Assembly (NCBI RefSeq): GCF_030149515.1
Contig: NZ_JASBRI010000013.1
Location: forward strand, 124,001-188,000
DNA from: Maricaulis sp.
GTDB taxonomy: Bacteria; Pseudomonadota; Alphaproteobacteria; Caulobacterales; Maricaulaceae
Direction of reading: 5' to 3'
Length of the DNA stretch: 64,000 bases
This document shows positions 4,746 through 7,085 of the stretch, in pieces; within the stretch, counting starts at the first letter, position 1; every line of letters starts with the position of its first letter. Under the pieces are notes generated by a model. It worked only from the letters and a program-made list of their open reading frames with translations, did not search any database and had not been told where the DNA came from. The translations under genes and the position numbers were made by a program.

Positions 4746-5786
4746 CTACGAGGCCCGCTCCCGGATACGCTGCAACAATTGATGCACATGCTCGATCGGA
4801 ACGTCGGGCGTTATACCGTGACCCAGATTGAAGATATGGGGCCGTCCGGCCCAGCTATCCAGCAAACGGTCGGTTTCCGACGCCAGCGCCGCGCCGCCGG
4901 CCCGCAAGGCAGCCGGATCCAGATGGCCCTGGACCGGCATGCCGTCCGGCAGGATCGACTGCGCCCAGGCCGGGTCGACACCCGTGTCCAGCGCGATCGC
5001 CGTAATCCCGGTTTCGCGGGCATAGCGGCCATACATCGAACCGGCGCCCCGCGGAAAACCGATGATCGGCACCGTGACACCGGCAGCCCGCACCCGCTCC
5101 ACGATATCGCGGGCGGGGCGGATAACCACACGCTCGAACAGGGGTTCCGGCAGGCCTTCCGCCCAGCTGTCGAACAGTTTGAGAACTTCGGCGCCGCACT
5201 TTGCCTGCATGACGAGATATCGTGCGGTCGCCTCGGACAGCCGGTCGATCATGGCATCGAAGGCTTCGGGATGTTCCCACGCCGCCACCCGTGCCGAGAA
5301 ACGGTCCTTCGAGCCCGCGCCTTCGATCATGTAGGTCGCCACTGTCCAGGGCGCACCGGCAAACCCGATCAGCGTCGTCTCTTCCGGTAATTCCGGTTTT
5401 ACCCGTTGCAGGGTCTCGCCGATGGGCGAGAGCACGTCTTCGACCTGCGACAGATCCAGGTTCGCATGATCGAGCGGGTTGAACGGATCCAGCCGGGGAC
5501 CTTCGCCCGGTTCGAACCAGACACGGCGGCCCAGCGCGATCGGGATCAGGAGAATGTCCGCAAACAGGATTGCCGCATCGAAGCCGAACCGCCGGATCGG
5601 CTGCAAGGTCACGTCGGCCGCCATGTCGGGCGAGAAGCAGAATTTGATGAAATCGCCGGCCTCGGCCCGCACCTCGCGGTATTCGGGCAGATAACGTCCG
5701 GCCTGGCGCATCAGCCAGACCGGTGGCGGCATACGGACGTCTCCGCCCAGAACCGCTAGGAGCGGTTTTTCCGAAAGCTTTGTCAT
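4746..5786 (-). CDS. hemE: Uroporphyrinogen decarboxylase
   Basis: 346 aa. It decarboxylates uroporphyrinogen III to coproporphyrinogen III. The N-terminal WLMRQAGRYLPEYR signature is complete, followed by the FADILLIP strand and a late NLGHGI segment. The ATG giving MTKLSEKP was chosen. The frame stays open to 5912, but that extension is basic, low in family-like sequence and overlaps the putative origin; a second ATG at 5804 is possible. hemE is the first gene of the leftward haem operon and borders the putative replication origin, as in Caulobacter, where a hemE promoter lies inside the origin. Confidence 0.96.
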   Translation of the reverse strand: MTKLSEKPLLAVLGGDVRMPPPVWLMRQAGRYLPEYREVRAEAGDFIKFCFSPDMAADVTLQPIRRFGFDAAILFADILLIPIALGRRVWFEPGEGPRLDPFNPLDHANLDLSQVEDVLSPIGETLQRVKPELPEETTLIGFAGAPWTVATYMIEGAGSKDRFSARVAAWEHPEAFDAMIDRLSEATARYLVMQAKCGAEVLKLFDSWAEGLPEPLFERVVIRPARDIVERVRAAGVTVPIIGFPRGAGSMYGRYARETGITAIALDTGVDPAWAQSILPDGMPVQGHLDPAALRAGGAALASETDRLLDSWAGRPHIFNLGHGITPDVPIEHVHQLLQRIRERAS

Positions 5787-6245
5787 GACCGCCTGATTAG
5801 GCATCGGCGGGTCGGGGATCAATGCGTCGTTTTCACCCGGCCGCTTTTTCTTTCCCTTATCTATTAAATTGATTTGTTGGGGTTGTTGGTGACGTTGACC
5901 GTGTTCAAACATCTGGTTCTACCGCTATCCACCACGGGGTATTGCCGGAAGAATCATGCACAGCCTGTTTTCCACGTGCTGTTGAAACACCATGTCTGAC
6001 CAATAAAACCGGTAAGATAGACCGGATATCCGCTGTTGATTCGCCGGGGCAAAGCGATTGAAGCGGTGAATTGCGTACATGCATCCACACACTTGCCAAC
6101 GCCTTGCAGGGGTGTGGAAACTTCTGTTGGTTCGCACCGGTATCACCCGGTACTACTCACAGCCAGGGCAGAGGCCGCCGGATCCGGGTCTGGTTTTCCC
6201 GACTTGTTAACAGAACGTAAACGCGAAACAGGGGTTTCTTGCGAC
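5787..6245. other. oriC: Putative chromosomal replication origin (oriC) between hemE and the RP001-type gene
   Basis: 459 bases without a convincing gene between divergent hemE and the PPRP gene, the position of Caulobacter Cori. The left part (about 5844-5880) is AT-rich against a GC-rich background. Five 9-mers match the DnaA box TTATCCACA at 7 of 9 positions: CTATCCACC (5925-5933), TCATGCACA (5954-5962), TTTTCCACG (5968-5976), GCATCCACA (6081-6089) and, on the minus strand, GTTTCCACA (6113-6121). GANTC sites occur at 5951 and 6038. A CtrA-like site sits at the right edge. No perfect DnaA box is present; Caulobacter also relies on weak boxes. Assignment rests mainly on synteny. Confidence 0.75.
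6207..6222 (+). promoter_or_regulatory. CtrA-like binding site TTAA-N7-TAAAC
   Basis: The sequence reads TTAA, seven bases, TAAAC. The Caulobacter CtrA consensus is TTAA-N7-TTAAC, so one base differs. It lies inside the putative origin, 24 bases before the start codon of the PPRP gene, where it could both silence replication and touch that gene's promoter. In Caulobacter CtrA represses the origin through several such sites. Only one good copy was seen here. Confidence 0.45.
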
Positions 6246-7085
6246 ATGTCAGCGCCGCCTTCCTCTCCCTTCGAGACCTGTTTTCACATCCACATGGTCT
6301 CGGATTCCACGGGTGAAACGCTCATGGAAGTGATGCGGGCCTCCGTGGCACAGTTCGAAGGCACCAGCCCGCTCGAACATCTTTATGCCCTGGTGCGCTC
6401 CTCGCGCCAGATGGAGCGGGTATTCGACGAAATCTCCGCCTATCCGGGCGTTGTCATGTATACGATTGTCAATGCCGATCTGCGCCGGGAACTGGAAACC
6501 AAGTGTGTCGAGCTGGGCGTTCCTGCAATCGCCGTTCTCGATCCGATGCTGGCAACATTGAGCTCCTATCTGGGCCGCCCGGTTGCCAGCCGGGCCGGCG
6601 CCCAGCGTTCACTGGATGCGGAATATTATCGCCGCATCGATGCGCTGAACTATGCGATGGCACATGATGACGGTCAGGGCGAGGATTACGAAGCCGCCGA
6701 TATCGTGCTTTTGGGCGTCAGCCGGACCTCGAAGACCCCGACCAGCATCTATCTGGCCCATCGCGGTTTCCGTGCCGCGAATATTCCGCTGGTCAAGGGC
6801 GTACCCCTGCCCGATGCGATCTACAGTCTGCGCCATCCGCTCGTCGTCGGTCTCACGGCGTCGCCGGAACGGATCGTGCAGATCCGTCGCAATCGCCTGC
6901 TCAGCCTCAACGAAGACCGGGATACAGACTATATCGACGATTTCGCGGTGCGCGACGAGGTGCTTCATGCCAAGCGCCTCTACGCCAAACACAAATGGCC
7001 CACCATCGATGTCACACGCCGGTCGGTCGAGGAAACGGCCGCGAAAATCATCAACCTCCTGAACGAAAAGCGGAGCCAGGCCTGA
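6246..7085 (+). CDS. PPDK / PEP synthase regulatory protein (bifunctional kinase-pyrophosphorylase, DUF299; RP001-type)
   Basis: 279 aa. The family phosphorylates (ADP-dependent) and dephosphorylates a Thr of pyruvate phosphate dikinase or PEP synthase, switching gluconeogenic PEP production. HIHMVSDSTGET near the N-terminus and the P-loop GVSRTSKT at 157-164 are characteristic. The ATG was chosen because family sequence starts there and AGGGG lies about ten bases upstream; the frame is open to 6036 but that part is origin DNA. This is the first gene to the right of the putative origin, as RP001 is in Rickettsia and CC0001 in Caulobacter. Its stop overlaps the maf start by one base. Confidence 0.92.
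   Translation: MSAPPSSPFETCFHIHMVSDSTGETLMEVMRASVAQFEGTSPLEHLYALVRSSRQMERVFDEISAYPGVVMYTIVNADLRRELETKCVELGVPAIAVLDPMLATLSSYLGRPVASRAGAQRSLDAEYYRRIDALNYAMAHDDGQGEDYEAADIVLLGVSRTSKTPTSIYLAHRGFRAANIPLVKGVPLPDAIYSLRHPLVVGLTASPERIVQIRRNRLLSLNEDRDTDYIDDFAVRDEVLHAKRLYAKHKWPTIDVTRRSVEETAAKIINLLNEKRSQA

Follow-up and report, generated by a model that had tools for sequence, protein, structure and literature searches.

The window analysed here is a stretch of 64,000 nucleotides (positions 124001-188000 of contig C19 in the genome G000). The corresponding assembly amounts to 2.9 Mb in 30 contigs and is 89.8% complete, the contig C19 itself spanning 209 kb. The window contains hemE, divergent from a kinase-pyrophosphorylase gene of the RP001 or COG1806 type (PPRP), and the two genes are separated by a 459-bp region that the original prediction had described as gene-free and proposed as a replication origin. 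The limits given for this region, 5787 to 6245, proved exact, hemE starting at 5786 on the reverse strand and PPRP at 6246 on the forward strand. The gene order invoked as typical of an origin was recovered by Pfam matches for rho, hemJ (UPF0093), hemH, hemE, PPRP, maf, aroE, coaE and a dnaQ-like exonuclease, and secB was recognised by eye. Genes were also said to point away from the gap. This is true of rho-hemJ-hemH-hemE to the left and of PPRP-maf-aroE-coaE-dnaQ to the right, but not further out in the list of open reading frames. That no other gene-free stretch exceeds 300 bases is plausible, as the two other candidate gaps inspected hold open reading frames; the gene caller was crude, missing even hemH and PPRP, and a further candidate, where the window begins, lies outside this check. 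Some open reading frame calls from alternative starts push hemE and PPRP into the gap (5787-5912 and 6036-6245), and these calls are unsupported by the genus alignment, judged by eye.

The gap was compared with those of 18 congeneric genomes (19 gaps with its own), whose kinship means that the counts given below are not independent. A divergent hemE upstream of PPRP was found in 19/19 genus members, in 22 of 24 other members of the family and in 63 of 80 named loci; three of the 17 named loci without it have too little DNA to judge. The nearest named relative of the PPRP is that of a Maricaulis MAG (84% identity). Also, two contigs labelled as Bordetella and Acidobacteria MAGs (L084, L129) carry a PPRP 57-58% identical to the alphaproteobacterial one described here, and they are probably mislabelled or mixed bins. 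DoriC reportedly may list a Maricaulis maris origin; in the literature on oriC, DoriC and GC skew, this name was not found among the matches listed, most subscription journals being outside the coverage. The features of the gap and its flanks are collected in Table 1.

Table 1. Coordinates of the features of the hemE-PPRP gap and its flanking genes (positions in the window).
Feature	Position	Strand	Basis
hemE (uroporphyrinogen decarboxylase), left flank	4746-5786	-	PF01208, E 2.2e-104
Gap between hemE and PPRP, proposed origin of the chromosome	5787-6245		minimum of GC skew, nearby parS, clustered DnaA boxes, low G+C, synteny
AT-rich patch beside hemE, candidate unwinding region	5845-5884		11 G/C of 40
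Single GGT-N3-ACC copy (GGTTCTACC)	5915-5923		motif search
DnaA-like box CTATCCACC, 7 of 9	5925-5933	+	match to TTATCCACA
GANTC site, chance level	5951-5955		expectation count
DnaA-like box TCATGCACA, 7 of 9	5954-5962	+	aligns with TCCACA boxes in several relatives
DnaA-like box TTTTCCACG, 7 of 9	5968-5976	+	match to TTATCCACA
GANTC site, chance level	6038-6042		expectation count
DnaA-like box GCATCCACA, 7 of 9, in conserved core	6081-6089	+	match and alignment
Weaker conserved DnaA-like box TTGCCAACG; relatives also TTTCCACG, TTATCAACA	6093-6101	+	alignment
DnaA-like box GTTTCCACA, 7 of 9	6113-6121	-	+ strand TGTGG invariant in 19/19
Weaker conserved box AACCAACA; several relatives AACCCACA or ATCCACA	6125-6132	-	alignment
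10-bp-phased tandem GGTATCACC-C-GGTACTACT	6139-6157		alignment and enrichment
Weak DnaA-like box CTACTCACA	6153-6161	+	overlaps second GGT-N3-AC copy by five bases; alignment
CtrA-like site TTAACAGAACGTAAAC (TTAA-N7-TAAA)	6207-6222	+	window's only match to the pattern derived from the site itself, 0.01 expected
PPRP / RP001-type / COG1806 gene (kinase-pyrophosphorylase), right flank	6246-7085	+	PF03618, E 1.6e-88

The G+C content of the gap is 0.525 versus 0.654 for the contig, within the lowest 0.14% of the contig's 459-bp windows. The AT-rich patch announced in the original prediction is present (5845-5884). In the genus, the most AT-rich 40-mer starts at most 60 bp from hemE in 13 of the 19 members and deeper inside the gap in the other six. 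As had been claimed, exactly five 9-mers match the DnaA box TTATCCACA at seven of nine positions, versus a mean of 1.23 in 200 dinucleotide shuffles (fraction with at least five, about 0.025), and the gap holds no 8-of-9 or 9-of-9 match. When clusters of at least five such boxes per 459 bp were sought on contig C19 alone, the gap was the only one. Across the 19 genus gaps, 137 boxes of this quality were counted versus 27.6 expected; because related species are non-independent samples, this ratio and the similar ones below are meant descriptively and do not stand for probabilities. The perfect box is found in 0/19 gaps, so that the label of weak-box origin suits the whole genus. The entire assembly contains four perfect boxes versus 18 for the reversed pattern, and they may be avoided genome-wide. 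A rival origin marked by perfect boxes elsewhere was considered and discarded: since these four boxes occur singly, on four contigs, there is no rival cluster of them in the available assembly.

Two blocks of the gap, 6081-6161 and 6197-6224, are conserved in the genus, and together they bring what is new at this locus, namely weak DnaA-like boxes, a CtrA-like box and a tandem GGT-N3-ACC phased by 10 bp. Their mean column identities in the 19 aligned gaps are 0.75 and 0.87, respectively, versus 0.61 (5787-5900), 0.53 (5901-6080), 0.52 (6162-6196) and 0.42 (6225-6245) elsewhere in the gap; the hemE coding sequence 5647-5786 reaches 0.79 in the same alignment. The first block contains DnaA-like boxes in both orientations as well as the tandem, and the second contains TTAACANNNNGTAAAC. 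A CtrA-like site had been announced, and it is indeed present and kept in 19/19 genus members, but as a single imperfect box, TTAA-N7-TAAA (6207-6221). The degenerate form TTAAC-N5-GTWAA occurs in all 19 gaps and the full box TTAA-N7-TTAA in those of two species. The two GANTC sites that had been put forward are also there, but they are worth nothing as evidence of an origin through CcrM, because their number in this gap (2) is close to the 1.42 expected, the genus total (19) is below the 33.9 expected, and nine of the 19 gaps have no such site. No IHF site was found in the gap with the pattern WATCAN5TTR, of which a looser form exists in the literature.

In a search for trinucleotide pairs separated by gaps of 0-12, GGT-N3-ACC ranked third (33 versus 2.2), after GGT-N2-TAC (50 versus 2.9) and the DnaA core TCCACA (56 versus 5.6). 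The first copy of the tandem (6139-6147) is the full palindromic GGTnnnACC, and the second (6149-6157) is without the last C. The second copy and a weak DnaA-like box have five bases in common, so that two proteins would hardly occupy both at once. The phased motif was present in its strict form in 16/19 genus gaps and as a looser half-pattern in 19/19, while a stricter tandem pattern had a match in 18/19 genus genomes, at the origin in 15 of them. The density of GGT-N3-ACC was 4.17 per kb in 15 genus gaps versus 0.067 per kb in the rest of their neighbourhoods. Copies located 7-14 kb away had suggested that the tandem marks the whole ori-parS region. This regional trend was dropped, because the density near the origin but outside the gap is the same as in 18 distant 20-kb samples taken from the complete genome G026 (0.064 per kb).

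The genome of the window has the phased tandem pattern twice, in this gap and at a second site that is probably coding. Seven of ten other tandem copies inspected fall within long open frames (L186, L187, L196, L197, L200, L204, L206), and three seem to be intergenic (L189, L198, L199). More copies, apparently intergenic, were seen 14.1 kb away on the hemE side in G038 (L208) and 6.8-7.0 kb away on the PPRP side in G067 and G068 (L229, L231); judging from the gene order of the window, one would fall just past parB and two near the end of hslU. Looser forms of the motif gave no distinct signal genome-wide. With one mismatch allowed, GGGTNNNACCCGG was matched 165 and 164 times and its reversed control 133 and 123 times, while CCGGTCATACCCG, searched at the same tolerance, stayed near the control in several of six genomes. 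Beyond the genus, GGT-N3-ACC was counted 11 times in 22 other gaps of the family versus 2.4 expected, spread over six sequences, and in 62 named alphaproteobacterial gaps it did not exceed chance (7 versus 6.3; hemE-bearing loci, with Maricaulis L077 left out).

The tandem may be the site of a replication regulator or of a promoter protein. It could be an operator in the promoter of PPRP and/or hemE, bound by a GntR regulator of the FadR/PdhR type and without any role in replication, which we hold to be possible but doubtful. PPRP is a regulator of pyruvate/PEP enzymes, and GntR proteins of the FCD type are present in 16/19 genus genomes. Also, the palindromic core GGTnnnACC found here is the one described for the E. 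coli PdhR box (PMC7660256), unlike which the motif comes in two copies at a 10-bp phase, inside a putative origin and overlapping a DnaA-like box. However, FCD proteins (E <= 0.001) do not accompany the element in every genome that bears it: they are absent from G068 (94% complete), from G071 (69%) and from G046, which is 99% complete and has three phased copies in its gap. Such a binder, if universal in the genus, is thus disfavoured. Moreover, the copies in L014, L019 and L020, which belong to other genera of the family, are on the hemE half of the gap, away from PPRP. The case for a FadR/PdhR-type (FCD) protein is therefore weakened, and a GntR protein of another subfamily is a possible binder.

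The conserved core could also encode a small RNA comparable to CcnA of Caulobacter, a transcript that arises within the origin and has CtrA boxes on its flanks (PMC8959179). The Maricaulis gap too combines a conserved core and a CtrA-like box, and three of the 12 pairs of the consensus fold show at least one two-sided change. Nevertheless, we find a small RNA improbable here. The consensus fold, calculated from 18 of the 19 gaps (without L169), is weak (-5.64 kcal/mol), and its covariation term of -0.03 does not speak for a conserved structure. With Rfam, nothing reached the threshold over 5600-6500, the sole hit being P2 sRNA (E 0.85), far under the gathering score. For S. meliloti, a CcnA homolog was not clearly detected in the account given in the CcnA paper (PMC8959179).

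An inversion of GC skew at the gap was the first check to which the original prediction lent itself, and it was recovered on its own contig and in samples from two complete chromosomes of the genus. On C19, the cumulative GC skew has its minimum at 132140, 1.9 kb from the gap on the PPRP side; 10 of 13 10-kb bins are negative on the hemE side and 8/8 are positive on the PPRP side. In G026 (one contig, 3,368,780 bp), the minimum over 180 continuous kb lies 1.8 kb from the PPRP start. The 20-kb samples of this chromosome are positive at 1-1.55 Mb (10/10) and negative at 1.70-3.16 Mb (10/10), which puts the opposite switch about half a chromosome away. The minimum of G060 (3,142,398 bp) is found 395 bp upstream of the PPRP start (within 40 kb), with samples positive in 10/10 cases and then negative in 9/10, and here too the sign switches back about half a chromosome from the locus. 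When 22 neighbourhoods were compared, two of them (G067 and G068) with just 3.3 kb of hemE side, the skew was more negative on the hemE side than on the PPRP side in 21, the exception being G015, from another genus. A local minimum more than 10 kb off was seen in three (G015, G036 and G013, all from other genera). Within the genus (15 neighbourhoods), the minimum falls beyond the PPRP end in 10 (0.9-3.4 kb after the start of that gene), within the gap in one and slightly inside hemE in four. Skew is a rough locator, and these ten minima past the PPRP start could mean that the gap is a mere divergent promoter region with conserved transcription sites, the true origin lying within a few kilobases, but this is very unlikely, since the five remaining minima fall in the gap or in hemE so that the whole set scatters around the gap, since no DnaA-box cluster of like density exists elsewhere on the 209-kb contig, and since the hemE-COG1806 gap of Caulobacter is reported as an experimentally identified origin (PMC1914354).

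The partition system is located on the same contig. An assembly-wide search for the parS pattern GTTTCACGTGAAAC returned two exact sites and one site with a single mismatch, all at C19:118623-120634, that is 9.6-11.6 kb from the PPRP start, whereas the remaining matches in the assembly all carry two mismatches. These three sites adjoin parA/parB, among rsmG, mnmG and mnmE (these three genes named by eye from the translations). The single Bac_DnaA match is on a contig other than C19. Extra parS-like sites (at most one mismatch) were observed on the PPRP side in other genus members, at distances from the PPRP start that are alike inside genus subgroups: +19416 in G026, +19447 in G009, +19719 in G059 and +19458 in G062, and, closer, +9674 in G064, +9156 in G056, +9714 in G065, +9372 in G067 and +10115 in G068.

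Supported by the skew, by the linkage to parS and parAB and by the enrichment of weak boxes in 19 genus gaps, our main reading is that 5787-6245 is the chromosomal origin of this Maricaulis-like alphaproteobacterium and belongs to the hemE-PPRP kind known from Caulobacter; we give it a probability of about 94%. Of the features that characterize hemE-linked alphaproteobacterial origins, those that can be read from sequence were observed here, namely a hemE-COG1806/PPRP gap, a skew inversion, a DnaA-box cluster above chance, an A+T content above that of the genome and parABS nearby. At such an origin, DnaA would build up on the weak boxes arrayed at 5925-5976 and in the conserved core (6081-6161) and would melt the AT-rich patch 5845-5884 beside hemE. 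Forks would then depart both ways from the gap, and ParABS, 9-12 kb away, would segregate the copies afterwards. The CtrA-like box, to which CtrA would bind at 6207, and the tandem (6139-6157) probably serve control, either excluding DnaA or helping it.

Cori, the origin of Caulobacter crescentus, was compared with the gap by its published features, an uncultured Caulobacter (L088) serving as stand-in for sequence. In Caulobacter, DnaA is described as using weak and strong boxes and as unwinding AT-rich DNA, and CtrA as blocking DnaA (PMC8959179, PMC6399470); parS lies about 8 kb from the origin (PMC6399470). The two loci have identical flanking genes and similar gap lengths (404 bp for Cori and 459 bp here). 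They also share, according to the published accounts, an A+T content above that of the genome, an AT-rich patch, mostly weak DnaA boxes, a CtrA-type site and a parS about 8-12 kb off (PMC1914354, PMC8959179, PMC6399470). However, Cori is described with five full CtrA boxes, where our gap has one imperfect CtrA-like box, and also with an IHF site and two strong DnaA boxes. Unlike Cori, our gap has no IHF match with the pattern tried, no DnaA box of 8 or 9 matches and no excess of GANTC, and it carries the conserved tandem. Judged by the strict description of Cori (PMC1914354), the DnaA box TTATNCACA is missing, nothing in this gap comes within one mismatch of TTATCCACA, and, where several full TTAA-N7-TTAA boxes are expected, there are none (0). 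As the strict DnaA boxes, the full CtrA boxes and the IHF site (with WATCAN5TTR) are all lacking, we regard this origin as a variant of the hemE-linked kind. It has the same place and probably the same logic; its CtrA input is sparser, it lacks a strong DnaA box, and it carries an extra conserved element.

Other Alphaproteobacteria offer comparable cases. In Hyphomonas neptunium, a CtrA binding site was located by ChIP-seq beside the origin (PMC7200025), which recalls the single CtrA-like box found here; a reduced CtrA input may thus not be unique. This origin was compared by its description, and GGT-N3-ACC goes unmentioned in the sections of that description available to us (PMC7200025). The origins predicted in Rickettsia and in the Wolbachia group are likewise beside hemE and of similar intergenic length, with none to seven CtrA boxes (PMC1914354). 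The box TTATNCACA, used as a criterion for predicting them, is missing here.

The origin is ordinary in its place and its logic, and its interest lies in the conserved doubled motif. A bolder reading, possible but less likely than not, is that the tandem is the site of an undescribed origin-binding regulator, present in Maricaulis and in some other members of the family. Such a protein would compete with DnaA at the overlapping box and would partly replace the once-per-cycle control exerted in Caulobacter through five CtrA boxes, which would amount to a rewired control. Our data place the origin for a genus related to Caulobacter, without a strong DnaA box at the locus. They also provide a short map for this genus, with five 7-of-9 boxes, one CtrA-like box and the doubled motif, whose strict form is present in 16 of the 19 genomes. 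Should a replication regulator prove to bind the doubled motif, this genus would offer a natural example of an origin where control by CtrA has been reduced and something else has been added.
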